Shown: positions 2,824 to 30,613 of the stretch, in pieces
Position numbering within the stretch: the stretch's first letter is position 1
Layout: each line of letters starts with the position of its first letter
NCBI GenBank assembly: GCA_905479075.1
Contig: CAJQLA010000001.1
Span: 62,001 to 126,000 of the forward strand
Direction: 5' to 3'
From: an uncultured Gammaproteobacteria bacterium
Lineage (GTDB): Bacteria > Pseudomonadota > Gammaproteobacteria > Nitrosococcales > Methylophagaceae
DNA: 64,000 nt
Notes under the pieces: generated by a model
What the model was told of the DNA's origin: nothing
The model's input: the letters and a program-made list of their open reading frames with translations, nothing else
The model's database searches: none
Program-made: the position numbers and the translations under genes

Positions 2824-3411
2824 CTAATTTAGACATTCTGCTTTATGTAAATCAATAGCAGCTGAACGCCGCTGAGGCTTTCCTTTCAGGTTCTCAATAT
2901 TTTGAAACAATTGACGACAGCGCTCTGACGTTCGTGAAATTACCTTTTTACTGGTTACTGCACCTTGAGGTAGAGAAGCTTTATGTACGATGGATTGCGG
3001 CTGTTCAGTTGCGTTGTTTAGTTTAACTGTGGTGGTTTTACGCATACTTTCTTCAAACCATTTATTATCTTGCTTGCATAAATTAACTAGCGTGGTACTG
3101 GAGGTGTTTTCAGCAATATTAATAAATTGGGTATTTCGGCAAAGCATGCCATTTATTGTGTTTGTGGACAAAGCTGTGATATTGCCAGAATGGCCCGTTT
3201 CACTATTTAGCCATTCCTGAGTATCACCATCAGCGTCTTCGTTGAGTACTTTTCTAGCATGGGCTTTCATGGTGTCCCAATCACTATCACTGAACAGTGT
3301 TAATGCTGATTCTTCAGGCATATTTAAATTCAAGTCCATAGCTTTTACTGGAAGAGAAGACAGCATGATCAGGCCGGTGGTCAAAGTGATAGTCATTACA
3401 TTTTGACTCAT
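2824..3411 (-). CDS. Exported protein of unknown function
   Basis: I place the start at 3411 because aaggagaacaacc lies directly upstream and the product then begins with a normal signal peptide (MSQNVMTITLTTGLIML...VKA). The frame itself extends further upstream to 3462. The mature protein of about 170 residues has several Cys that may pair and a basic C-terminal half (RTSERCRQLFQNIENLKGKPQRRS). I do not recognise a domain. It converges on the lipoprotein gene and has a long gene-free region behind its promoter. Confidence 0.6.
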   Translation of the reverse strand: MSQNVMTITLTTGLIMLSSLPVKAMDLNLNMPEESALTLFSDSDWDTMKAHARKVLNEDADGDTQEWLNSETGHSGNITALSTNTINGMLCRNTQFINIAENTSSTTLVNLCKQDNKWFEESMRKTTTVKLNNATEQPQSIVHKASLPQGAVTSKKVISRTSERCRQLFQNIENLKGKPQRRSAAIDLHKAECLN

Positions 3412-4325
3412 GGTTGTTCTCCTTTTTAGTTTATATATTGAATATTTTCTATAGTGAGTCAACTTACGTAAAAAAGCAAAGAAATGTATCGTGTATGAAG
3501 TGCCCTAAGAGCAGTTAAAACATGTGGAGTACTTAATATATCATTGAGAGACTTTATTCAAATATCGTCTGCAAGCTAGACATTAATCATATTGTATTAT
3601 TAACCGAAACGGCTTCTAGTCAGAACTTGGTGGAATTGCCTACCTGTTAGGTTTCGCGTTAAACGAGTGATCGCTTTTGGCGGCACATTAGCGACATCCT
3701 TTTCAAAGGGCGGCGTTCAACCCAAAGTAGACACACTAGACGCAGTAAATAAATAATGGTGCGTCCAGTATTTTTATTACGTATTCAGGCGGTAATAATT
3801 TTATTTAACACTTTCCTTTTGATATAGAGTAATAGAGTGGGGCAGGCATAAACATGGATCACAAACTGACCCATTAAATAGCTTTCATGACATTAAGTTT
3901 ATTCACTCTTTTTACTATTCATAAACTTCTACTCATCAAATGTATTTCTTAAAAATATTACTAAAGCCTTCACCTTTAGTGTTCAGACTCTTAATTTCCA
4001 TGCATTAAGGAGATTAATTCTCATCTAATCTCATTCGCTTGGCCAGAAATCTCATTTTGTTTGTCCTTTTGCGTTTCTGTTCATGATCGTGCTTCTTCAC
4101 CCATTTACATATATTCGCATAATATATATTATGTTAAATGGAATGTTAACATGTAAGTTCCTTTCAGGTAGTGTGTCCTTACTAACATTATTAACGCTTC
4201 TATCCTATTAATCTTCAAATTTTAAAATCTGACTGCATTAGCACTGTCAAGATTGCCTTATTGTAAGATTCAACATTTGAAATATTAAGGTGATTTGTGA
4301 ATCTAAAAAGCCCAGAAAAATGTGA
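3412..4325. other. Gene-free 914-bp interval
   Basis: No frame of useful length or recognisable domain is present on either strand. The central part (about 3600-3760) is less AT-rich than its surroundings and could be debris of an old gene, but its short translations carry many stops and I recognise nothing. The only structured element is a palindrome at 4118-4133, listed separately. The interval separates the promoter of the exported-protein gene from the 3' end of the slipin gene. Confidence 0.6.
4118..4133. repeat. Perfect 16-bp palindrome CATAATATATATTATG
   Basis: The two 8-base halves are exact reverse complements, and CCATTT (4101-4106) with AAATGG (4136-4141) forms an outer inverted pair. 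It lies inside the gene-free interval. It could be an operator or a cruciform-prone site; in DNA this AT-rich chance occurrence is also possible. Confidence 0.35.
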
Positions 4326-5078
4326 TTACTTATTGATCACTGTCTTAAGTGAACCAAGAAAATCGCCTGGCAATGGGAAAACAATGGTCGATGATTTGTC
4401 TCCAGCAATTTCTGTTAGTGTTTGCAAATAACGTAACTGAATTGCTTGAGGTTGTTTTGATAATATCTCTGCTGCTGCAAGTAATTTTTCAGATGCTTGC
4501 AACTCACCTTCAGCATGAATAATTTTAGCTCGTCGTTCTCGTTCTGCTTCTGCTTGTTTTGCTATAGCCCGAATCATACTTTCATCTAAGTCAACATGCT
4601 TTATTTCGACATTTGCAACCTTAATTCCCCAAGCATCAGTCTGAGTATCTAGTAAAGTTTGTATATCGATATTCAATTTGTCTCGTTCAGCGAGCATTTC
4701 ATCCAATTCATGTTGTCCTAGAACTGAACGTAATGTGGTCTGTGATAATTGACTAATGGCATCGTAAAAACGCTCTACTTGGATTATTGCTCTTTCTGGA
4801 TCAATGACACGGAAATAGACAACGGCATTTACTTTCACTGATACATTATCTTTAGATATTACATCCTGTGTCGGTACATCCATTACAATCGTTCTTAAAT
4901 CGACCCTAACCATTTGTTGGATAAAGGGGACGATGATGATAAATCCCGGGCCTTTTACGCTGTAAAATCGACCAAGTAGAAAAACCACACCACGTTCATA
5001 TTCACGTAAAATTCGTATTGCACTAAAAACTAAAGCTAATGTCGCCAGTGCTAGTATTGAAATAAATGATAATGTCAT
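4326..5078 (-). CDS. Slipin (stomatin/SPFH family membrane protein)
   Basis: The 250-residue protein has one N-terminal membrane segment (about residues 3-20), an SPFH domain (about 20-190, with [11 protein letters not shown] and [10 protein letters not shown] typical of slipins) and a coiled-coil region rich in Glu, Arg and Ala ([14 protein letters not shown]). Slipins oligomerise at the inner membrane and form scaffold cages. It starts 14 bp behind an NfeD-family protease gene, the usual slipin/NfeD pairing, in which the protease cleaves the slipin C-terminus in archaeal homologues. Two-gene operon with 5093-6478 is inferred from spacing. Confidence 0.9.
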
Positions 5079-5092
5079 GACAGCCTCTCCTT

Positions 5093-6478
5093 TTATTTGT
5101 CAGGCCTTACTTTTACAATCAGTCCATCTATATCCTCTACCCTGCCTCGATCACCTTTTTTCATTGGTGATATTGCAGTCGCCATCCATAATTCACTGTG
5201 CACACGTACCCTTCCTGTGGTTTCAAAATCATCAATGGCTTCACATTCAGAACCAACCATTTGTTCATGTCCTGAAACAATTGGATTACGCCTAGCTTTA
5301 AACACAAGACCCAATGCTAATATGAAAAATGCGGCAGTTGATATTGTAAAACCAGCAATAACACCAATATCAATGCCGTACCCCGGCAGATCTGTATCAA
5401 TCAATATTAATGAACCAGTAGCAAAACTGATGACGCCACCAATGCCAAGCACACCAAAGCTTGGCTGAAAGGCTTCTGCCACCATTAATGCTATCCCTAA
5501 GAGTATTAAGGCTAGACCTGCATAATTGATAGGTAATACTTGAAATGAAAACAAAGCTAAAAGTAAACAAATGGCGCCTACCGTTCCTGGTACTATTGCA
5601 CCTGGGTTAGCGAATTCAAATATCAAACCATAGATCCCAATCAACATTAAAATATAGGCAATATTAGGATTTGTTAATGTTTGCAAAACACTATTTCGCC
5701 AATCAGGTAATAGCTCATGTACGCTAAGTCCAACTGTTTCTAAAACTACTGGCGTGCCAAGGACTTCCACAGTTAGCCCATTCAGTTGTTTAAATAAATC
5801 TGCCTGACTTGTTGCGACAATATCAATAACATTTTCTTTTAATGCTTCTTCTGCAGATAAACTGGCTGCCTCTATAACTGCTTTTTTTGCCCATTTTTCA
5901 TTTCGACCATGCATCTTAGCTAAACTTTCTATGTACGCTACAGCATCATTTATTATCTTTTTACTTGAGGCATCATCATTTTTCATTGCCTTTGTTTGTG
6001 GATGAGTCGTTTTATCCGCCGCCTTTTCTGAGTCTTCACCTTTATGTTTATTAGTTTCATCTGGCGTCGTACCTGGCATTGGTATTAGTTGAATAGGTGT
6101 GGCTGCCCCAAGATTTGTACCTGGAGACATCGCAGCTATATGACTGGCATAGAGAATATAGGTGCCAGCACTTGCTGCACGAGAACCACCTGGCGCCACA
6201 TATGTCACTACAGGTATGGGAGATGTAATGATTTTTTTGATGATTTTACGCATCGATAAGTCTAGACCACCTGGTGTGTCCATTCTTAATAAGATGAACG
6301 CTGCGCTTGCCCTATTGGCTTTATCCATTGAACGCTCAAAATAATCGACCGTAGCAGGACCAATTACACCATTAATTTCTAATAGATAGACTTGTTTATT
6401 CGGGTTGTTTTCAGCAGATAAAGATACTGGCAGAACTGCCAAACAAAGCAATGTTAATACGATGAGTAACTTCTTCAT
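5093..6478 (-). CDS. nfeD: NfeD-family membrane serine protease (NfeD1b type)
   Basis: The 461-residue protein has a signal peptide (residues 1-22), a ClpP-class serine protease domain with the nucleophile Ser103 in RAASAGTY and the likely partner Lys at 173/174 ([13 protein letters not shown]), four or five membrane helices (about 265-400) and a C-terminal NfeD OB-fold domain ending in [11 protein letters not shown] low-complexity linker (about 140-168) separates motifs in the protease domain. Family members cut the hydrophobic C-terminus of the adjacent slipin, which is encoded directly downstream here. The catalytic dyad assignment is by similarity to the Pyrococcus PH1510 protein. Confidence 0.9.
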
Positions 6479-6571
6479 AATGAGTACTCCAACAGTATTT
6501 ATGTAAATACCTTTTGTTATGTATCGCTAGCTTTAAACTTCCAATATTGCCTTTATTATTAATAGCTTATA

Positions 6572-7396
6572 TTATCTATGGGATACTGCTGCAACAACAT
6601 TTAGCCATTCATCTTGTATTTTATTATTGAGTATTTCTATATCAGCCTTGTCCTTTATACTGGGCACTATCTGTAAGATCATATTCAAACCAATTAACAT
6701 GTAGTTAGCTGTTGACATCAACAAAGAGTGAATGCCATCAGTTTTGATATCGTAGGCCTTAATGCCTTCAATCGCATCAGTGGTTGGATTGATGATTAAA
6801 TCGGCTTCTAATGAATGGACTGTAGAATGAGTCGATTCGCTAAGTAAAGCATAAAGCGTTCGGTACTCGTTTAGCATGCCTGCTAAATCAGCTTTGATAA
6901 AGACTTTAAAGTCATGTCTATCAACATCTTCAGAGCTTGCAATTATTTTCTCTAATTCTTCAATCTCTTCGTCTGAATAAGTATCAAGTGTTTCCTGCTG
7001 CTCTCTAAGAGCTTTTAAAAATGCCAGCCTTTCATTGCTGTCACCCAAGATCAACACATCGAAAAACTCGTGATGATGATGGAAAGCAGCTAAATCGAAT
7101 AAGGTTTCAAGAAGTGATCGTAAGATGATTTCAACCTGATGAACCATACCACGTCGAGCCAAAATAAGAGCGGCTTGATAGTGTGATAACATCCGCTGAA
7201 AATACAGCATGGCATAAACTTCTTTTCTGTCGTCAGGGTGAATGACGATATGGTTGAGTACTGTTTGTGCTGCTCGGTTCAGGTTCTCACAGATCTTGTA
7301 ACAGTCAGAAGAGCTAATTTGCTGCAATGCAGGGTTTGTTAGATATTCGCTGGATAGAAAGCCAATATCATTAAATGAGGTTTTATTCATGTTCAT
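6572..7396 (-). CDS. DUF5677 family protein, complete copy
   Basis: The 274-residue, probably all-helical protein shows the family hallmarks: a helix with QAALILARRGM, then VEIILRSLLETLFDLAA and a later STHSTVHSLEAD segment with conserved Ser/His. No membrane segment is evident. The ATG at 7396 has GGGAG seven bases upstream, whereas the second ATG (7390) is too far from it. Function is unknown; relatives occur in defence-like and accessory contexts. Its first ~50 codons are duplicated at 14878-15048, next to the intact gcvP, so it originally lay directly downstream of gcvP. Confidence 0.75.
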   Translation of the reverse strand: MNMNKTSFNDIGFLSSEYLTNPALQQISSSDCYKICENLNRAAQTVLNHIVIHPDDRKEVYAMLYFQRMLSHYQAALILARRGMVHQVEIILRSLLETLFDLAAFHHHHEFFDVLILGDSNERLAFLKALREQQETLDTYSDEEIEELEKIIASSEDVDRHDFKVFIKADLAGMLNEYRTLYALLSESTHSTVHSLEADLIINPTTDAIEGIKAYDIKTDGIHSLLMSTANYMLIGLNMILQIVPSIKDKADIEILNNKIQDEWLNVVAAVSHR

Positions 7397-7644
7397 GATG
7401 CGTCTCCCAATAGTGAGACTTCTATATCTTTTATTCTACTCCTCTTTCAGCGACAGATAAAACAGGTACTTTTATGGGCAACAACACGCTAAGTGCTGAT
7501 CTCCATAGACCTCATCAATTCTTCCTACAGCAGGCCAATATTTGTCATCATGTTGTTGCTGATTAGGAAAAAAAGCCTGTTGCTTAGAGTAAGGAAAAGT
7601 CTAATTCTCAATCAGGAAGTTGTGAGTATGAGGTGCATTCCTTA
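7249..7644. repeat. Direct repeat copy B: DUF5677 5' end + gcvP 3' end
   Basis: This ~396-bp segment matches 14907-15294 in the same orientation, with roughly 15 substitutions and two indels (one of about 9 bases in the gcvP/DUF5677 intergenic spacer), that is about 95 % identity by eye. It contains the first ~50 codons of the DUF5677 gene, its leader and the last ~57 codons of gcvP. Both ends of the match are abrupt. Confidence 0.9.
7472..7644 (-). pseudogene. gcvP: gcvP 3'-end fragment
   Basis: This stretch repeats the last ~57 codons of gcvP, including the unusual terminal Cys-Cys-Cys-Pro and the stop, with about nine substitutions. It has no start or upstream gcvP sequence: similarity stops at 7644 and unrelated DNA follows. 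It is a dead remnant produced by the event that brought in the 7.6-14.9 kb block. Confidence 0.9.
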
Positions 7645-7923
7645 TGTCTCCGAGTCGTCAACTCGCTGCTTTTTAAATTCTCCAGCATCATCAGTTTAAC
7701 CAAATTACTTAAGCTTGGATAGCTTAGTTATTTACGGCTATTGATAAGGGCATAAGCATGAAGCTAACCTACAAACAAGTCGAATCCATGAATAGAACTT
7801 AACAAATGCCGAGTAAGAAAACTACGAGTATGCATTAGTTTGATTATTACAATGGCGGTCACATCACTGCAGTATTTTGTCAGCAAAAAGAGTGCATGAT
7901 ATTTTCAAAAAAAATTATTGTAC

Positions 7924-8460
7924 TCAGGAATGTTTAAGGTGATTTTTTATATATCTATCAGCAGAAAACGAAAAAACAGGCATTAAGTCCCTTTTTTCCC
8001 CTGCGATATAAGTTTCGTTTGATAAGTTGTCTAAGATTACAGGTTGGTTGTGTCTTTTTAGGAAAAACCCCAAAACAATGTGAGGACTATTCATAGTTCT
8101 GTTGACGGTGTAAAAAACTTTAAGTTGATTTTCGCTAACGTCACAAGATAACAAGACAAAATATTTTATAATTAACTTCGTTTCATCATCATATTCAAAC
8201 CTTGTATTAACGAAGTTATTTATGAACGCTATTTTCTGTATAGTTGATTTAAAGGGAGTGCGCTCTAGCTCATTCAATACTTTTTTAGTTGCCTGTACCT
8301 GCCATTCTTTGTCAACTTGGACCTTGCTTATATGAAGGCTGCTTATTGTTAACTTTACTAGAATTGCCATTACGCTTACTAGAAAAAGAATTGATAAAAA
8401 ATACCGATATCTATGGTTTCTTAAGATTTTACCTAAAAGACGGTAGTTATGGGTTAACAC
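7924..8460 (-). CDS. LapG-like periplasmic protein lacking the catalytic Cys (pseudoprotease)
   Basis: The 178-residue protein has one N-terminal membrane helix (about residues 20-40) and a bacterial transglutaminase-like cysteine protease fold. It aligns with the LapG encoded at 29951-30613: shared features are W53, FVNT followed by DD, IIKYF, His127 (SPHIVLGFF), Asp144 (ILDNL) and KRDLMPVFSF. Between the DD and IIKYF about 23 residues are missing in frame, exactly the segment holding the WATP motif and nucleophile Cys (GDCEDY). Cys106 does not align with the nucleophile. It should be a tethered non-enzyme, perhaps a sensor or competitor. The gene overlaps the receiver gene by 14 bp and ends the operon. 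Confidence 0.7.
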   Translation of the reverse strand: MLTHNYRLLGKILRNHRYRYFLSILFLVSVMAILVKLTISSLHISKVQVDKEWQVQATKKVLNELERTPFKSTIQKIAFINNFVNTRFEYDDETKLIIKYFVLLSCDVSENQLKVFYTVNRTMNSPHIVLGFFLKRHNQPVILDNLSNETYIAGEKRDLMPVFSFSADRYIKNHLKHS

Positions 8461-8827
8461 ATCTACTCTCAGTTTTAAGTGTTTCTAACAATGACATAAT
8501 CTGGAAAGGCTTAACGAGATAGGCATCTGCATCAACCAAGCCTGCTGCCTTTAAGTTTTCCACCCCCGATAATGCAGACAGTAGAACAACTCTAATATGA
8601 GATGACCACTGACTTGATTTGATTAACCGGCATACTTCAAGCCCATCAATAGGGCCTGGCATCATTATGTCAAGCAAGATGACGTCGGGCTTTTTATAAA
8701 ATACGGTTCCTAATGCTTCTATTCCGTTCTTGCTTTCATAAATCTCATAGTCACTCAAATCTAAGGTTTTTTTTATTAATAACCTAATCTCTGGATCATC
8801 ATCTGCTATGAGTAGTTTTTTTATCAT
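8447..8827 (-). CDS. Single-domain response regulator
   Basis: The 126-residue protein consists of one receiver domain and no output domain. The acidic pocket (ADDDPE), phosphoacceptor Asp53 in LLDIMMPG, Ser84 and Lys106 (YLVKPFQ) are all present, so it should be phosphorylatable. It follows the other receiver gene by 23 bp and overlaps the LapG-like gene by 14 bp, which suggests translational coupling. It probably relays signals from the large histidine kinase, possibly to a target outside this operon. Confidence 0.88.
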   Translation of the reverse strand: MIKKLLIADDDPEIRLLIKKTLDLSDYEIYESKNGIEALGTVFYKKPDVILLDIMMPGPIDGLEVCRLIKSSQWSSHIRVVLLSALSGVENLKAAGLVDADAYLVKPFQIMSLLETLKTESRCVNP

Positions 8828-8850
8828 GTTTCTTACCCTAAATTAGATGT

Positions 8851-9279
8851 TTAAATTATTGTACTGCCAGTCTCAAACGTAATTGCACACGACACTTCTT
8901 GAGTGTGAGCCCCCTTTTCTACTTCACCAATTAGTTCTAATGGGCTAAATGGCTTAACAAGATATGCATCACATATAGCAGATAGTCCCTTTTGGATATC
9001 TCTTTCTTGCCCCTTTGCTGAGAGCAAAATCACATACATCCATTTCATTTCAATTGAACTTTTAATTTGTCTGCATACTTCAATTCCATCTGTTTTTCCT
9101 GGCATCATCACATCAAGAATAACTATTTGGGGGTACTCTTTTGTTATAACTTGTAGCGCCTCTTCTGCATTTTTTGCCTCATAAACTGCAGCATCTAAAT
9201 ACGATAACGTCATCCGTACAAGTTTCCGCAAATCAGGGTTATCATCAACGATTAAAATTCTTAGCTCATTGCCACTCAT
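8851..9279 (-). CDS. Single-domain response regulator
   Basis: The 142-residue protein is a receiver domain with a short C-terminal tail of about 20 residues. The pocket (VDDNPD), Asp56 in ILDVMMPG, Ser87 and Lys109 (YLVKPFS) are intact. Its start overlaps the stop of the histidine kinase gene by 4 bp. It resembles the neighbouring receiver (both have MMPG, DG-EVCR-IKSS and YLVKPF), so the two probably arose by duplication. No DNA-binding or enzymatic output domain is present. Confidence 0.88.
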   Translation of the reverse strand: MSGNELRILIVDDNPDLRKLVRMTLSYLDAAVYEAKNAEEALQVITKEYPQIVILDVMMPGKTDGIEVCRQIKSSIEMKWMYVILLSAKGQERDIQKGLSAICDAYLVKPFSPLELIGEVEKGAHTQEVSCAITFETGSTII

Positions 9280-12200
9280 TTTCCACCTTCCTCTTTTATC
9301 AAGATAGAATTACTAAATGTTGGTAAACAAATTTTTATAGTTGACCCCTCGCCATAAGATGAGTCGATATCTATGCTACCTTTATGCCTAGCAATAATTT
9401 CTTTAACAATCGTCATCCCCAAACCTGTGCCAGGGATATTTCCAGATTTTTCTGCGCGGTAGAATCTCTCACCTACCCGTGCCATTTCTTCTTTCGTCAT
9501 CCCTATACCTTCATCGCGGACAGCAACACAGATTTCAGAGCGACCTACTGTCAGCAATATATTCACGGTAGTACCGTTATCGCTATACTTGATAGCATTG
9601 CTTACTACATTAGTTATAGCTTGACCTAACTTCTCTTTATCTCCGTAGATATACGCAGGTTTTTTTACTTCAATATTGTGATTTAGCGTTATTTGTTTTT
9701 CTTTCGCCAGAATTGACATATCGGTAGATACGCTAGTCACAACATCTTTTATATCAACCTTATTCATACTATAGAAATCAGTATTATTAGCTTCAATTTT
9801 TGCAAGATCCAGTAACTCGTTGAGCAATGTTCTTAAGTTTAGAGATTGCCTATTAATGATATTGAGCAGCTCATCTTGTTCGACCTCGTCATATTTATTT
9901 CTGAGTAATAAATCACTAAACCCCAAGATACTTGCTAATGGTGTTCTCAATTCGTGCGCTGCCGTAGACAGAAATTCACTTTTCATCTTATCGACCTTTG
10001 TTTCATGAGTAACATCACGTAAAAACCAGACAGATCCAAATGTCGCGTTTTTATTCTTTATAAGTTTCGAAGTAAGACTTAGAGTAACGGGTTGAGGATG
10101 GTTTATAGAGAAGCGCAAGTCAGTAACTTCTTCATTGTCTTTTATATTCAATAATTGAGCTTTATTTTCAATACAGTTTTGGACTAAAAGTTGCTTGAAA
10201 CCAACTAAGTCTATGTCCGTATATTGCTTTCCGTCGTAACCAGTTAACCTAGTAAAAGCTGGGTTAGCAAAAACAATCTGGCTTACGTCGTTTATAACCA
10301 CATAGGCATCTGGACTCAGGTTGAATATTGTATTGAGTTGACTCTCTTTTTGTTTAGCAGCAAGTTTACTTTTCTTTCTATAGTCGTCTATTTCCGTAAT
10401 ATCTTGTCCTATAAAAATAACAGTTTGGTTATTTTGTTCGTCAACTGAAACTACTGAAACCAATATAGTGAGTTCTCTATTTGTTTTCGATTTGAGTCTT
10501 AATTCATACTTTGTGTTTCTAACCTTTTGTAGGAAATGCTCAAAATTGCTAGCCAGTTCCGGTTCTAGGTTTATGATTGAGCTAATATTAATGCCTGTTA
10601 TTTCTTTTTTATTCCAACCTGTTAAGTCCTCAACCGACCGATTCCACTGGATAATATCCCCTTGAGTATTAACACTAAATATCGGATTGTTTGCCTTTTC
10701 TATCAATAATTCATTTTCTTTTCTTACAGCATTATATTTCGCTTCATTTGCTTTTTTAATTGAGATATCTTTGACAATCAGCAACTGTTTTAGCTTGTTT
10801 TCAAAGGTGATCGTTTTAGCAATTAGCTCAACTGGGAAAGGTCTACCAGAGTTGTTTAGGCATCGACACTCAATACTTGTTTCTTCTCCAGCCTCGATAT
10901 ATGTTGATAACGTTGCAGGATCTTCTAAATTTACAAGCTCAAAAATATCTTTTCCTATGATCTGGGCCTTCGAATACCCGAAGAGTTCAATTGCAATATC
11001 GTTGAAGTCAACTACTTTATAATTATCATAAAATAAAATGGCATCAGTACTTGCCGCCAAAAACTGAGCCATCCTCCTATTGGCTTGATGGAGTTGAGAT
11101 TCATATTCCTTCTTCAACGAAATATCACGAATAACGGCTATGAAGTTAACTTCATTCTGAAGAACAAGTTTGGAAACACTAATGTCAATATCTAGTGTTT
11201 TGCCTAATTTTGTTAAGCCCTGTGCTTCCACAGAGCCGTGGTTAACAAATTTACTTTTTTGGGTTTTGTTGTACCTTTTTATACCGTTATTATGAGCGTC
11301 TTTGTATGCATGTGCGCTTAGAGTGGAGCTAGGTGTGCCTACTAGTTCTTCCATTGAGTAACCGAAAATAGTACTAATTTTTTGATTTACTGACTTTATA
11401 ACGCCATTCACATCACTAACAACAATTCCATCATTAATATTGTCTAAAACTTCAGTTATGTACAATTCATTATTTAATGACTGTCTGGCAGCTTTTTTAT
11501 AGTCTCCGTTCAGGGCTAAAAGCTTTTTCTTTTCTTCGTTAATAATGGATAGAAGATGTGCAAAGCTGACTAATAGTGGGGTTAAATCTGAAGGTTCATT
11601 GCCAAACTTAATTACAGAACTGTGCGTTTTATCTATGGTAAGGGTATTTAGCATCTGTGACCATGCTGCCAAGTAAGTTTCAAACTTGTTCGAAACGAGT
11701 TTTGCCATCAATACCAATAGTAAGATAATAACTAAAGTAAAAAGTAATGTATCTCCATAAGATTGTTGTACTTTTGATGTAAGCTCTACCGTTGGCTGAA
11801 GTAGACGAAATGTTAAATCCGTTAAATTGATGAACTTAAGATCTACAAATAAATAACTTTGGTTCCAGCTCCCGATTTTTGATAAATCTTCTTGTAAATT
11901 TGGTTCAAGAAAAAGTCCAGTTTCGTCAATACTATGCGTCTCATGAATGTCGCTAAGTTTACTAAGGCCACCTAAAGATATAACTTTAGCATCAGGTGAT
12001 AAAAATAAAATATCGACCTCGGCGTTGTGGTGAGAAAGTGCTTCATTTACTATCTCGTGGATAGCTTCGACAGGGTAAATAGTAAGCACTCTCCTTGAGC
12101 GCTCATCCATATCGACTAATGAATAAAAGAATTTGCCATCTACAGAAAAAGATAGCTTATTTTCGGGCTCAGAAAATAACTTCTTAAGTACTTCGTCCTG

Positions 12201-13079
12201 AATCATTTCTAGTGTATTATCAGAGTGAAACAAGTATTTTTCTACACCGTTTTCTGCATTACCTGCTACGACTACGGGAGTAATAGCATTAACCTCTCTT
12301 AACAGTTCATTTCTGTTTTTTGTCTCTTCTTGTCCAGAATCAAAATAAAGTTTTGCAAGATACTTAGCCTCATTAATGTGGTTATTTATGGAGCTAGAAA
12401 GGTGGGCTTCAACATAATTACCTGTTTGGCTTATGTATTCTCTTTCCTCTTTTAAAATTGACTCATAATTGGATTTATTGATAGCAATCAATACGACCAT
12501 TAACGGAATTAATGGGAATATAATTAGTAGGGTTCTTAAAAGCTGACTTAACTGCCAATGCTTGTTAGCACATAGAGCTTGTAATAGTAGAGAGTAATGT
12601 TTGTAATTTAGTAGGGCTATATATAGGAGTACCGAAATCACTGTATTTACGACACCGTTGACGGTTTGTTTCAGTGCAATGATCTGTACAACACTAGTTT
12701 CTAGGCTCAATACATTTTTGTAACAGAAAAAAACGACAGGAAACCCAACGAATAGCCAAAATAAAATGTCAGCAATCACATAGTCTTTAATTTTTGTTTT
12801 ATAAACTAAAAAGCCAACAACAAGTGCCTCTAGAAAAAAACTCACTATTGCATAAGGGTGCCCCCACAGATAAAAAGTATAACTACTGATAATAAGCCCG
12901 GTTAAGGCGCCAACTTTCCAGCCTAAAAACCTTAAAGCGAGCATCGTAAAGACACTGCCAAAAAGGTAGTCGATACCAAAAAATAGTGTTGGGCTAAAAA
13001 TATTTCCTAACAAGCCCAAAACAACCATCAAAAAGAAAAATTTTATGCTTACACTCCGAGTTGTTACTTCATTAGTCAT
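9276..13079 (-). CDS. Membrane multi-PAS sensor histidine kinase
   Basis: The 1267-residue kinase has an N-terminal polytopic sensor of MASE type (about six helices, residues 10-160), another helix at about 185-203, a periplasmic Cache-like segment (about 205-440), a helix at about 442-462, four PAS domains (about 540-660, 670-785, 793-900, 915-1015), a HisKA domain with phosphoacceptor His1042 (AAHELRTP) and a HATPase domain (NVVSNAIKYS, DEGIGM, GTGLGM). It has no receiver of its own; two separate receivers follow. Such a double sensing module (membrane-embedded plus periplasmic) with PAS repeats suits redox, light or small-molecule input, but no cofactor motif is evident. It starts 4 bp after the 353-residue gene. 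Confidence 0.9.
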   Translation of the reverse strand: MTNEVTTRSVSIKFFFLMVVLGLLGNIFSPTLFFGIDYLFGSVFTMLALRFLGWKVGALTGLIISSYTFYLWGHPYAIVSFFLEALVVGFLVYKTKIKDYVIADILFWLFVGFPVVFFCYKNVLSLETSVVQIIALKQTVNGVVNTVISVLLYIALLNYKHYSLLLQALCANKHWQLSQLLRTLLIIFPLIPLMVVLIAINKSNYESILKEEREYISQTGNYVEAHLSSSINNHINEAKYLAKLYFDSGQEETKNRNELLREVNAITPVVVAGNAENGVEKYLFHSDNTLEMIQDEVLKKLFSEPENKLSFSVDGKFFYSLVDMDERSRRVLTIYPVEAIHEIVNEALSHHNAEVDILFLSPDAKVISLGGLSKLSDIHETHSIDETGLFLEPNLQEDLSKIGSWNQSYLFVDLKFINLTDLTFRLLQPTVELTSKVQQSYGDTLLFTLVIILLLVLMAKLVSNKFETYLAAWSQMLNTLTIDKTHSSVIKFGNEPSDLTPLLVSFAHLLSIINEEKKKLLALNGDYKKAARQSLNNELYITEVLDNINDGIVVSDVNGVIKSVNQKISTIFGYSMEELVGTPSSTLSAHAYKDAHNNGIKRYNKTQKSKFVNHGSVEAQGLTKLGKTLDIDISVSKLVLQNEVNFIAVIRDISLKKEYESQLHQANRRMAQFLAASTDAILFYDNYKVVDFNDIAIELFGYSKAQIIGKDIFELVNLEDPATLSTYIEAGEETSIECRCLNNSGRPFPVELIAKTITFENKLKQLLIVKDISIKKANEAKYNAVRKENELLIEKANNPIFSVNTQGDIIQWNRSVEDLTGWNKKEITGINISSIINLEPELASNFEHFLQKVRNTKYELRLKSKTNRELTILVSVVSVDEQNNQTVIFIGQDITEIDDYRKKSKLAAKQKESQLNTIFNLSPDAYVVINDVSQIVFANPAFTRLTGYDGKQYTDIDLVGFKQLLVQNCIENKAQLLNIKDNEEVTDLRFSINHPQPVTLSLTSKLIKNKNATFGSVWFLRDVTHETKVDKMKSEFLSTAAHELRTPLASILGFSDLLLRNKYDEVEQDELLNIINRQSLNLRTLLNELLDLAKIEANNTDFYSMNKVDIKDVVTSVSTDMSILAKEKQITLNHNIEVKKPAYIYGDKEKLGQAITNVVSNAIKYSDNGTTVNILLTVGRSEICVAVRDEGIGMTKEEMARVGERFYRAEKSGNIPGTGLGMTIVKEIIARHKGSIDIDSSYGEGSTIKICLPTFSNSILIKEEGGK

Positions 13080-13083
13080 AAAA

Positions 13084-14145
13084 TTAGTCTTTGAAGCTCA
13101 GCCCATGAAATTGGCATTTTTTGGTTAACTGAGCAAGATCCATAGCATAACGTTCTAACTGTTCCCATTTAGGAGCAGCTATAGAAGCATGAGTCAATTT
13201 AGAAACATCTTTTGCATATAGATCTAGTTGTTTCTGACTCAGTTTAGTACTTTCCAACTCACCCGTATCACTTATAGGGATTTGAATAAGAATTAGACTA
13301 CTTTCGCCTATGCTGGAACAATCGATAAGGCCACCATGCAACCCTATAAAGATATCAACTAAAAACCAATTATCGGGGAACCGATGAAGAGTGGTTGTTT
13401 CTTTTTGTTCTTGAGCCGAGTTTAGATCGTTAAATAAAATGATATTTAAAATATTATTACTCTGCTGAAGCTCAACATAGATTCTATTTTCTGATGAGGA
13501 ACTGGCAATTAAAGTTTGTAAGCAGGACGTTATCGCAAAAGATAATTGATCAATATTGCCTTTAAATTCTAGTTTCGGTGTTAAGGTATTAAACTGAACA
13601 TCAGGTCCCCACGAACGTTGTCTAACGTTATTTTTAACTGTTTCTATTAGGCCTTTTACACATACCAATTCCCTATCAGACGTTTTATAATTCATTAGAT
13701 AGTCATAGAATAATGATATTTCCTCAGGGAACTTAATTTTTCGCTCACTACTGTTCGACGCTACACCTTGTTTTAATAATGGTTGTAGGTGAGTTAATAA
13801 AAGTTGAACTGGTTGCAAAACTTCTCTAAAAAACAGTTCTTCAGCCGTAATAAAGGTGTCACTGATATCTAAGGTTTCCTGAGCGTATACTAATTTATAA
13901 TTGCCCATTATATTTGTTACAAGAACCTGAAGTTTTTCAGATAAATATATTTTTATCGGTGTTTCTATATGTTCATCTATAACAGCAGTAACTGCATTAG
14001 TTAATAGTTCTGTTCTCAAACCATCATTTAGATTAGCCCCAATAGTTTTTTTAGCCTGTTCATTAACATACAAAGTTGTACCATCTGCATTTAAAATCAA
14101 AACACTTGACCCTTCTTGCTTCGATACTTTTACTTCTGCTGACAT
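13084..14145 (-). CDS. Degenerate kinase-like protein (PAS-like + HATPase-like), unknown role
   Basis: The 353-residue soluble protein starts with a PAS-like segment (SVLILNADGTTLYVNEQA) and later has a region whose layout resembles a histidine-kinase ATPase domain (about 165-295, including a GSLI-like LHGGLIDCSS strand and SLILIQIPI end strand). The phosphoacceptor HELRTP box is absent and the N, G1 and G2 boxes are not recognisable. It may be a non-catalytic kinase partner or adaptor. Spacing of 5 bp to the upstream MerR/REC gene and 4 bp to the kinase gene places it firmly in the operon. The domain reading is tentative. Confidence 0.55.
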   Translation of the reverse strand: MSAEVKVSKQEGSSVLILNADGTTLYVNEQAKKTIGANLNDGLRTELLTNAVTAVIDEHIETPIKIYLSEKLQVLVTNIMGNYKLVYAQETLDISDTFITAEELFFREVLQPVQLLLTHLQPLLKQGVASNSSERKIKFPEEISLFYDYLMNYKTSDRELVCVKGLIETVKNNVRQRSWGPDVQFNTLTPKLEFKGNIDQLSFAITSCLQTLIASSSSENRIYVELQQSNNILNIILFNDLNSAQEQKETTTLHRFPDNWFLVDIFIGLHGGLIDCSSIGESSLILIQIPISDTGELESTKLSQKQLDLYAKDVSKLTHASIAAPKWEQLERYAMDLAQLTKKCQFHGLSFKD

Positions 14146-14150
14146 TCGTT

Positions 14151-14723
14151 TTACCCTAAAGTAATAGACTTTAACTTTTCAAACGGTACTGGTTTTGGAA
14201 ACACATGAAACCTAGAATTTAATGGTCCCCTCAACTCTATTTCATCCGCACTTAGTCCTGTTACGATAATAATCTTGGTATTTGCTAGTGCATTTCGTCC
14301 TGACAGGGTATCCAACATATGAAAGCCATCGAGGTTGGGCATTTTTAAATCTGTAATAATTACATGTGGGGTCTTTTCACCAATCATTATGAGAGCTTCG
14401 TAGCCATCAGCAACACAGGTGGTTTTTATATCCTTACCCCATGATGCTATTTCCATTTCATATAGCTTTTGTAAATCTAAATCGTCTTCTACTATTAAGA
14501 TATCCAACCTTGGCTGGATTACCTCCCCCTTGGGTAAGGGCATTTCGCTTAGCTTTCCTAGCAGCCGTTTTACTTCATAAGTATGTATTCTCCGATGCCC
14601 TCCAGGAGTCTTCAACACCTTAATCAGTCCCATATCCGACCATAACTGTATTGTCCTTGCGCTAACACCAACAATTTTTGCTACGTCCTGTGTCGTATAT
14701 AATTCTTTAATTTTTTTATCCAT
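14151..14723 (-). CDS. MerR-type HTH fused to a response-regulator receiver
   Basis: I start at the ATG 14723 (190 residues); an upstream TTG at 14744 adds seven residues but has no better ribosome site. Residues 8-55 form a MerR/BldC-type winged HTH (YTTQDVAKIVGVSARTIQLW followed by GGHRRI). Residues 72-188 are a receiver with acidic pocket (VEDD), Asp125 (ITDLKMPN), Thr155 and Lys177. The order HTH then REC is reversed from the usual response regulator. It lacks the long MerR dimerisation helix, so dimerisation probably depends on the receiver. It is the first gene of the operon and sits just downstream of five 9-bp repeats, so autoregulation is plausible. Confidence 0.85.
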   Translation of the reverse strand: MDKKIKELYTTQDVAKIVGVSARTIQLWSDMGLIKVLKTPGGHRRIHTYEVKRLLGKLSEMPLPKGEVIQPRLDILIVEDDLDLQKLYEMEIASWGKDIKTTCVADGYEALIMIGEKTPHVIITDLKMPNLDGFHMLDTLSGRNALANTKIIIVTGLSADEIELRGPLNSRFHVFPKPVPFEKLKSITLG

Positions 14724-14762
14724 ACACTCGCTTCTATTCTCCAACTTCTAATACCATTGGGG

Positions 14763-14807
14763 TTTCCGGTATTTCCGATATTTCCGATATTTCCGATATT
14801 TCCGATT
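14763..14807. promoter_or_regulatory. Five tandem 9-bp repeats upstream of the MerR/REC operon
   Basis: Reading the plus strand, the unit tttccgata occurs five times head to tail (14763, 14772, 14781, 14790, 14799), with one change in the first and last units. It ends about 40 bp before the MerR/REC start codon. The position and iteron form fit an operator for cooperative binding by the HTH protein, though a slippage-prone microsatellite is the simpler alternative. Confidence 0.6.
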
Positions 14808-14877
14808 TAGCGCATCATACAGTAGAAAATTGGTTTGTCAATAAGATTGCCTTCAGATAGGTATGTTTGAGTTGACC

Positions 14878-15048
14878 TTACGAGAAAAGACTATGTTCGT
14901 GATCTTTATGGTTGAGTACTGTTTGTGCTGCTCGGTCCAGGTTCTCACAGATCTTGTAACAGTCAGAAGAGCTAATTTGCTGCAATGCAGGGTTTGTTAG
15001 ATATTCGCTGGATAGAAAGCCAATATCATTAAATAAGGTTTTATTCAT
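14878..15048 (-). pseudogene. Truncated 5' copy of the DUF5677 gene
   Basis: From the Met at 15048 this copies the first ~47 codons of the complete DUF5677 gene with few changes, then runs at 14907 into unrelated sequence and stops at 14878. The first start codon of the intact gene is changed here (ATG to ATT), leaving only the second. It directly follows the intact gcvP, as the complete gene would have done before the insertion. Confidence 0.85.
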
Positions 15049-15294
15049 GTTAATGATGCGTTTCACCAATAGTGAGACTTCTATATTTTTTATTCTATTC
15101 CTCTAGATAAAACAGGTACTTTTATGGGCAACAACACGTTAAGTGCCGATCTCCATAGACCTCATCAATTCTTCCTACAGCAGGCCAATATTTGTCATCA
15201 TGTTGTTGTCGATTAGGGAAAAAAGCCTGTTGCTTAGAGTAAGGAAAAGTCCAATTCTCAATCAGTAACTTGTGAGTATGAGGTGCGTTCCTTA
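14907..15294. repeat. Direct repeat copy A: DUF5677 5' end + gcvP 3' end
   Basis: The partner of 7249-7644 in the same orientation. Here the gcvP portion belongs to the intact gene and the DUF5677 portion is truncated, the reverse of copy B. The spacer is about 8 bases shorter than in copy B. Confidence 0.9.
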
Positions 15295-28045: not shown

Positions 28046-29938
28046 ATGTCATTGTCTAAACAATTATTAATTCTACTCAGTTTCGTCTTTTTTATTGTTT
28101 TCTCCGCCAGTTTTATTCTGAGTGTAGGTAACATTAAAAACTATCTAGAAGTACAGTCTGAGTTTCATGTTCAGGATACCGCCACCTCACTCGGCCTTTC
28201 TCTTAGCCCATACATGGTTGATGACCAAGACCCAATGCTCCGAACAATGATGAACGCCATATTCGATATGGGTTATTACAAAGAGATGCGCCTAGAAGAT
28301 ATCGATGGCAAAGAACTGATTAAACTTAGTAATACTGAGCAAATAGAAGGCGTACCGAGTTGGCTAATCAATCTAATGCCAATGGATGTGGCAACGGCCG
28401 TTTCTGAAATCAGTTCAGGCTGGAATATGTCAGGAACACTGTATGTCACGGCTAACCCTGGCTATGGCTATTTAAAGCTCTACGAACAAGCTAAAGCCAC
28501 GCTCACCTTTTCTTTACTTATTTTCTTAGCCGCTATTATTTTACTCATCATTATATTAAGACTGACACTTAAACCACTTAAAAATATAGAACAACAAGCC
28601 AATGAAATTTCAGCGGGTAACTTCATAACAACCCAAGATTTACCATGGACACTTGAAGTTAAAAATGTCGCTATTTCAATGAATAGCATGTCGAAGAAAA
28701 TAGGCGATATGATAGGCAGACTCAATGGTAAGTTAGAGTCGTTAAGCGAAAATTTAAAACAAGACCCTTTAACTAAACTGTTGAATCAGGCGACTTTTGA
28801 AGTCAACCTGAAACAAGCATCATCAAGTGGCGACAAAGGCTATGCCGCTATTATAAAATTTGATGATCTCGCATTCCTTACTAAGGATAAAGGCAATCAG
28901 GCCGTTGATGATTTACTCATCGAATTTGCTGCAATACTAAATAAACCTCAACAGGTTTTAGCTTATCGCCTCTACGGCTCTGAATTTGGTTTACTAATGC
29001 CCTCTTTCGGCAATAAAAAGATGCTAGAAACCATCGAACAGTTACAAGCTGGCATCGAACAGTTAGGCGGGAACTATCAATTAGACGACTTAGTGCACAT
29101 TGGTATTATTCACTTTGATCGCACTAGCGAATACAACAAGCTCTATCCAGCTATGATCGAGGCTTATGAACAAGCTAAAAATATTGGTCATAACGCTTAT
29201 TTTGTGAATGATAATCTTTCAAGCTCTATGAGTGATCTCGAGTGGAAAAAAGTGATAAAAGAAGCTATCGAAAATAATACACCAGAGATTACATTCACAG
29301 CACAAGCCTTTAATTATCAACATGATCCTGCACAAAAAGTCATGGAAGAAGCCTTTACAGTTATTCGAGATAGTGGTGGTAACTTATTGCCTATAGGTAT
29401 ATTTTTCTCTATGGCACAAGAATTTAATATGGTTGAAGCCTTAGATAAGTGTATCGTCAATAAAGTGATCAAGCTCATGGAAGAAACAAATACAGAGACC
29501 GCTATCACCATTAACCTTTCTATGGTATCTGTGTCATCACATGAGTTTACCAATTGGCTTAAGGCTCGCCTGTCCTCAACACATATCAACCCGACATTAC
29601 TGGCCTTTAGCGTCACAGCGTATTCAGCTATGAAAGATATTACTAGTTTTGCTAATTTTGCCAGTTTTGTGAAGTCGATAGGTGCAACCACTTTATTGAA
29701 GCGTTACTCTTCAGATATTATCGATGTTGAAATCCTAAAAGATCTCCATATTGATTATCTACGTTTAGCGCGAGATTTAACTATGGCTATTTCGAATAAT
29801 TCAGATAAAGCACAATTCTTAGATTTGATCCAAGAAGTTGGCAACTTACTGGAAATTAAAGTCCTAGCCGAATCGGTTGTTGACGATGAAGACTTTGAAG
29901 TCGTCAAAGCCACTAAACTATATGGTATTAGCCGCTGA
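28046..29938 (+). CDS. lapD: LapD-type c-di-GMP receptor
   Basis: The 630-residue inner-membrane protein has two membrane helices (about 8-28 and 150-172) around a periplasmic LapD/MoxY-type domain, then a HAMP, a degenerate GGDEF domain (GSEF in RLYGSEFGLL) and a degenerate EAL domain (TAQ instead of EAL). LapD binds c-di-GMP through the dead EAL domain and then holds LapG away from its adhesin substrate. It is followed by lapG after 12 bp. A GAGGA site lies six bases before ATG. Both domain degeneracies are as expected for a receptor rather than an enzyme. Confidence 0.93.
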   Translation: MSLSKQLLILLSFVFFIVFSASFILSVGNIKNYLEVQSEFHVQDTATSLGLSLSPYMVDDQDPMLRTMMNAIFDMGYYKEMRLEDIDGKELIKLSNTEQIEGVPSWLINLMPMDVATAVSEISSGWNMSGTLYVTANPGYGYLKLYEQAKATLTFSLLIFLAAIILLIIILRLTLKPLKNIEQQANEISAGNFITTQDLPWTLEVKNVAISMNSMSKKIGDMIGRLNGKLESLSENLKQDPLTKLLNQATFEVNLKQASSSGDKGYAAIIKFDDLAFLTKDKGNQAVDDLLIEFAAILNKPQQVLAYRLYGSEFGLLMPSFGNKKMLETIEQLQAGIEQLGGNYQLDDLVHIGIIHFDRTSEYNKLYPAMIEAYEQAKNIGHNAYFVNDNLSSSMSDLEWKKVIKEAIENNTPEITFTAQAFNYQHDPAQKVMEEAFTVIRDSGGNLLPIGIFFSMAQEFNMVEALDKCIVNKVIKLMEETNTETAITINLSMVSVSSHEFTNWLKARLSSTHINPTLLAFSVTAYSAMKDITSFANFASFVKSIGATTLLKRYSSDIIDVEILKDLHIDYLRLARDLTMAISNNSDKAQFLDLIQEVGNLLEIKVLAESVVDDEDFEVVKATKLYGISR

Positions 29939-29950
29939 TAGAGCAGCTTA

Positions 29951-30613
29951 ATGACTTCCCATCGACATCTTCGGCCGTTAGCATGCCTAATTATCATATT
30001 AGGCATGTTTTTGTCATGGCCGTTACTTGCTGAACTGAATATCACAGAACAGCTACTCAATAAAATTGAACTAAAATACAATAAATTTGCACGCAAACGC
30101 GTGGTTTCCTGGCAAGAACTGATAGACACGTCCAAAAACCTTCTTGAACCTGAAAAACTGGAAGCTGTTAACAAGTTTTTCAATACCAATGTTCAATTTA
30201 TTGATGATCGCGCCTTATGGCATAAAGAAGATTACTGGGCCACACCCATTGAAATGTTATCTATTGGTGCTGGTGATTGTGAAGATTATTCAATCGCAAA
30301 ATATTTCACCCTAATAGAGTTAGGCGTTGCTGAAGAAAAACTGAGAATTACTTATGTTAAAGCGATTGAGCTTAATCAAGCTCATATGGTGTTAACTTAT
30401 TTTGAAAACAGAAGGTCCATTCCATTAGTTCTAGATAATTTGATAATTGATATAAAGCCTGCCAATCAACGTAGAGATTTAGCACCTGTTTATAGTTTTA
30501 ATGGTTCTGGCCTATGGCTTGCTAAAGCTAGAGGTGAAGGACAGAGAGTCGGAAATGCTTCACGTTTATCACTATGGGAAGACTTAACCTTAAGGGTAAA
30601 AAACGGACTCTGA
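29951..30613 (+). CDS. lapG: LapG periplasmic cysteine protease
   Basis: The 220-residue protein has a signal peptide (about 1-27) and the transglutaminase-like protease triad Cys110 (GAGDCEDYSIAKY), His145 (NQAHMVLTYF) and Asp162 (VLDNLI), with the WATP motif before the Cys. LapG cuts the N-terminus of giant adhesins of the LapA type when LapD is free of c-di-GMP; no such adhesin gene is in the window. It is paired with lapD. A relative without the Cys is encoded at 7924-8460. Confidence 0.94.
   Translation: MTSHRHLRPLACLIIILGMFLSWPLLAELNITEQLLNKIELKYNKFARKRVVSWQELIDTSKNLLEPEKLEAVNKFFNTNVQFIDDRALWHKEDYWATPIEMLSIGAGDCEDYSIAKYFTLIELGVAEEKLRITYVKAIELNQAHMVLTYFENRRSIPLVLDNLIIDIKPANQRRDLAPVYSFNGSGLWLAKARGEGQRVGNASRLSLWEDLTLRVKNGL

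Follow-up and report, generated by a model that had tools for sequence, protein, structure and literature searches.

What a LapG-like protein that lacks the catalytic cysteine could do for its host is the question raised by pLapG, an ORF in the window (the whole 64,000-nucleotide stretch of DNA analyzed here; features in Table 1). We show that pLapG is a homologue of LapG which has lost the nucleophile, carries a predicted membrane anchor, and is encoded last in an operon lying within an insertion. Its singleton status and the operon-carrying insertion are the strongest new facts; neither the operon nor the 7.3-kb insertion with its flanking direct repeat was part of the preliminary description of the gene. 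We consider it probable that pLapG is a functional non-enzyme of some kind. Should it prove functional, the Lap pathway would have a pseudoprotease among its regulators. pLapG also raises a testable question, namely whether a dead LapG can bind LapD and thereby release LapG.

Table 1. Features of the window discussed in the text
Feature	Coordinates	Strand	Description
Direct repeat copy 1	7249..7644	.	5' end of intact DUF5677 gene and decayed gcvP 3' end (with stop)
Insertion, 7.26 kb	7645..14906	.	Carries the operon with pLapG; relatives lack it at their gcvP-DUF5677 junction
pLapG, LapG-like pseudoprotease	7924..8460	-	178 aa, GTG start, N-terminal TM helix ~16-44, LapG-like domain 51-178
Junction codons 91-96 (DDETKL)	8173..8190	-	~25 LapG residues absent here; position computed from ORF start 8460
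RR2, single-domain response regulator	8447..8827	-	Overlaps pLapG start by 14 bases
RR1, single-domain response regulator	8851..9279	-	
Histidine kinase	9276..13079	-	1267 aa; several TM helices, PAS repeats, HisKA, HATPase_c
353-aa protein	13084..14145	-	Weak PAS similarity
MerR-type HTH fused to receiver domain (MerR-RR)	14151..14744	-	First gene of operon
Direct repeat copy 2	14907..15294	.	Intact gcvP 3' end and orphan DUF5677 5' fragment
LapD	28046..29938	+	Sole LapD_MoxY_N protein found in genome; candidate partner
Canonical LapG	29951..30613	+	Next to LapD

A LapG homologue without a nucleophile

The 178 codons of pLapG are open throughout, with no internal stops, and encode a basic N-terminus, one TM helix (residues 16-44 in the model), and then a LapG-homologous domain. 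Because basic residues precede the TM helix, the domain is likely to be periplasmic and tethered to the inner membrane. The gene is presumably expressed.

BLASTP aligned pLapG with the canonical LapG of the window (E 1e-16; 26% over 187 columns). The alignment has a single gap, 25 residues long, into which the WATP and GDCEDY motifs fall. With a profile built from 139 LapGs, pLapG scored 89.5 bits in two blocks, skipping model positions 114-139. The His and Asp of the triad are present as His127 and Asp144, and both columns are invariant in the alignments made. The preliminary description had thus been right to report an intact frame, an added membrane anchor (here a predicted TM helix), and retention of His127 and Asp144, and its loss of about 23 residues holding both motifs agrees with the approximately 25 found by BLASTP and the profile, the edge of the gap being aligner-dependent.

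Pfam Peptidase_C93 (PF06035) did not match pLapG, and the NCBIfam LapG model gave a weak match (51.5 bits; cut-off 320). A search of the genome itself found pLapG and two normal LapGs; these real LapGs lie above the PF06035 cut-off yet below the NCBIfam LapG cut-off. The canonical LapG of the window reaches 258 bits with the NCBIfam model, and annotation pipelines may leave it unnamed. A Pfam match of pLapG to SieB was below cut-off, lay over the TM region, and was dismissed.

The residues missing from pLapG correspond to W..DYWATPxE..GxGDC of LapG. In BLASTP and the HMMER profile alignment the whole DCED is deleted, and the latter takes YDDET of pLapG as the end of the strand preceding the lost loop. 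MAFFT and phmmer alignment to 4fgo paired D91-D92-E93 with D-C-E, that is, Cys is replaced by Asp92. The Ca2+ ligands flanking Cys (D and E of DCE) would be D91 and E93 according to MAFFT and are absent in the profile alignment. In the AlphaFold2 model the central helix begins at D92, seven residues before K99, which is the Cys-to-Lys spacing of LapG, but the input alignment of the model is of the same kind as the MAFFT/phmmer pairing. Judged from its sequence, pLapG has no nucleophile under any alignment. In the model Cys106 lies beyond the far end of the central helix (92-105), and on this evidence it does not stand in for the lost nucleophile. pLapG has also lost the C-terminal helix of LapG (GLWLAK..RLSLW region).

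With 41 aligned rows, AlphaFold2 predicted pLapG with a mean pLDDT of 89 (94-97 over most of the domain) and a pTM of 0.70. Six PDB entries matched the model at E 0.001 or better, all of them LapG (4u65 and 4fgo among them), and superposition on 4fgo, at 2.5 Å rmsd over 139 columns, supports a LapG-like core. When the model was run without an alignment, the helices through residue 105 recurred and residues 122-178 had pLDDT below 50; the fold assignment of residues 122-178 therefore rests on homology.

pLapG is a singleton

The 21-25 residues of the gap region were present in 139 of 139 aligned LapG homologues, and the catalytic Cys in all but one of them. The exception, L100 (G330:C183), comes from another gammaproteobacterial genome and has GDSEDF for GDCEDF. 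About 1,200 genomes, viral contigs, phages, plasmids, and a scan of one genome per species yielded no loop-less LapG copy, and searches across the family, the order, the class, and the phylum and in genome contigs yielded no loop-less homologue either. Collecting homologues for comparison of the Cys loop, as proposed earlier, gave the loop in every LapG found, but none of these is close, the nearest reaching no more than 33% identity over the core. pLapG is thus a singleton and not a demonstrated family, as no orthologue sharing the lesion occurs among the sequences searched. Of the functional non-enzyme proposed in the preliminary description, sequence and model support a protein that is anchored, has an unbroken frame, and is not an enzyme, whereas a distinct pseudoenzyme family is not shown. 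The functional non-enzyme reading is plausible and is drawn from one gene in one genome.

In the tree, the end branch of pLapG measures 9.95 changes per column and has no supported neighbour. pLapG is about equally distant from every LapG, which rules out a recent in-genome duplicate of LapG. The clean loss of the nucleophile loop that had been suggested does not describe a change to a LapG of this genome, given this equidistance, the extremely long branch, and the inserted operon; nor was the loss confined to the loop, as the C-terminal region is gone too.

Several candidates and relatives came up during these searches. L119 and L232 looked loop-less by alignment lengths but contain the loop. 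The Vibrio megaplasmid matches H1 and H2 also seemed loop-less, but the loop is present with Ser for Cys. This Vibrio relative (V. vulnificus and V. parahaemolyticus records; L115:6016-6546, L116:5785-6315, L114:6049-6546) has GDSEDF for GDCEDF with His and Asp kept, and is a candidate for another inactive LapG. In the collection of papers searched by full text, no inactive LapG relative is described. In L199 (935-1621), what appears to be a biotin synthesis cluster ends with a second LapG that looks active and has a lipoprotein-type signal (VGCSS), and the same arrangement is seen in L200.

An inserted two-component operon

The genes gcvP and DUF5677 are directly adjacent in the relatives L208 (G010) and L211 (G021), and L208, where the NfeD gene is next as well, represents the empty site. 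Together with the direct repeat that flanks the segment, this adjacency identifies the segment as an insertion. The repeat (0.39 kb, 397 columns, 94% identical by BLASTN) spans the gcvP 3' and DUF5677 5' ends. The GC content of the insertion is 35.5%, compared with 38.9% for the window, and no integrase gene is present among its six genes. Single-crossover integration of DNA bearing the same junction is one possibility for the mechanism. The two dead copies have accumulated nine nonsynonymous changes, one stop, and two synonymous changes, which fits neutral decay after duplication and dates the insertion to approximately 0.04 substitutions per site. The case also shows a sensor operon that carries, within an insertion that can be dated, an accessory gene for a predicted periplasmic protein. 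A short tandem array with a 9-10-base unit (TATTTCCGA) lies at 14770-14808, just upstream of the MerR-RR gene and inside the insertion.

The operon is ordered MerR-RR, PAS-like, histidine kinase, RR1, RR2, and pLapG. Since pLapG is co-encoded with the kinase and its start is overlapped by the end of RR2, it might serve as an accessory sensor that modulates this kinase by binding its extracytoplasmic region (about residues 205-455, predicted by eye) or else a peptide or Ca2+ signal. Related kinase operons in the family do bear other extra genes: those of L074, L079, and L081 encode an HD-GYP protein, and those of L075, L076, L079, and L080 a secreted protein that looks binding-protein-like (PhnD type; names by eye). 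DvhG has been modelled binding the dCache domain of DvhD (PMC13090378). However, the closest operon, L074, with a kinase 30-43% identical, is without pLapG, and the extracytoplasmic part of the kinase has no sensor domain recognized by Pfam, so we regard a role of this kind as somewhat unlikely.

The L074 operon (3056-8100) is located before mraZ and has its HD-GYP gene between two response regulators. A pLapG orthologue was looked for in the G015 operon and is absent.

Constraint or decay

pLapG retains 18 of the 24 columns that are conserved at 95% or more in LapG, compared with 3 of the 38 columns conserved below 40%, which indicates that it was constrained over most of its divergence. Taken with the confident LapG-like core of the AlphaFold2 model, this retention argues that pLapG was long selected as a folded protein. 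For the period since the insertion, the chance of an intact frame under neutrality is about 0.11 at the measured rate and 0.33 at half that rate, so that the open frame is suggestive of constraint in this period, not proof of it. Codon bias in pLapG is not above the composition null (z 0.35, against 3.2 for LapG).

These figures bear on whether pLapG is instead a decaying passenger of the inserted segment, a divergent LapG without its active-site segment and C-terminus that serves no function and is free to drift. The singleton status, the codon bias indistinguishable from the null, the shortened C-terminus, and a frame that could have stayed open by chance are all compatible with such decay. 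It is harder to reconcile with the conserved columns retained, the lack of any stop or frameshift, the tight overlap with RR2, and a well-formed TM anchor. Nor does a hidden C-terminal remnant follow the stop codon: the DNA there belongs to the gcvP repeat and codes for the decayed gcvP C-terminus. We therefore take decay to be a real possibility but on balance doubtful. No terminator-like site was found just 3' of pLapG on its own strand.

LapD and a possible mode of action

LapG binds c-di-GMP-bound LapD via strand 4 and neighbouring residues, and A169, Y176, V205, and Y206 of P. fluorescens LapG are cross-linking sites across this interface (PMC4359373). They align to P126, F133, V162, and F163 of pLapG, which are the same or conservative and lie in its best-kept segment; P and F at the first two sites also occur in intact LapGs. 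As the best-kept segment holds all four LapD cross-link positions, the preliminary idea of a competitor for LapD gains modest support.

pLapG would most likely act by docking, not cutting. We propose that it is a catalytically dead LapG fold, held in the periplasm by its inner-membrane tether and made as the last product of the inserted operon. By keeping the C-terminal lobe that LapG uses to bind LapD, it could occupy the single LapD of the cell, and the two real LapGs of this genome would then be freed and adhesin release promoted when the operon is on. Binding of pLapG to LapD and the resulting effect on LapG are what we would expect from these features.

That pLapG is a LapD decoy specifically is a tentative reading of the sequence, which we hold with less than even confidence. 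The existence of DvhG, a TM-anchored active LapG relative (PMC13090378), counts for it. Elements before strand 4 are also involved in the LapD Trp pocket (PMC4359373), and their possible partial deletion in pLapG counts against it, as do the lack of a found orthologue, the codon bias at the null level, the roughly one-in-nine chance (P ~0.11) of an intact frame if neutral, and the dependence of AlphaFold2 confidence on LapG rows. A LapD-like neighbour was seen within the fetched DNA for 64 of 80 named LapG loci, and pLapG has no LapD beside it. Because of this difference, and because related kinase operons carry accessory genes, binding to its own kinase appears nearly as attractive as the LapD decoy. 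The further proposal that a membrane-tethered decoy competing for c-di-GMP-loaded LapD would constitute a second, transcriptional switch for adhesin release, bypassing the c-di-GMP level, is a speculative extension that we think unlikely.

Alternatively, the dead domain could guard an adhesin at the membrane, binding its LapG site, shielding it from LapG, and so promoting attachment. LapG-type proteases touch their substrate outside the active site, and DvhG docks the retention domain of its adhesin (PMC13090378). However, the segment lost from pLapG lies next to the active site, and its loss should weaken contacts with the substrate in that area; no adhesin was identified in the genome. Such a guarding role seems very improbable. 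A DNA pattern resembling LapG cleavage sites, used to look for an adhesin, was uninformative.

Comparison with known systems

LapG (Peptidase C93/BTLCP; 4u65 from P. fluorescens, 4fgo from L. pneumophila) shares with pLapG the fold, the C-terminal lobe, the His and Asp of the triad, the PVxSF strand, and predicted periplasmic export. LapG has the catalytic Cys, the WATP loop, and the C-terminal helix, none of which are found in pLapG, and its cleaved signal peptide is replaced in pLapG by a TM anchor, encoded away from LapD.

DvhG of Desulfovibrio vulgaris resembles pLapG in joining an N-terminal TM helix to a LapG-like domain, but is an active protease with an intact C-H-D triad and Ca2+ site (PMC13090378). 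HvyA of Caulobacter crescentus, another BTLCP member, is a cell-surface regulator whose function requires the catalytic triad (PMC4241560). The Ser-for-Cys LapG relatives (Vibrio megaplasmids P0001-P0003 and L100) have a changed Cys (GDSEDF) and, like pLapG, keep His and Asp, but in these the loop is intact, the change is a point substitution only, and the gene neighbourhoods are different.
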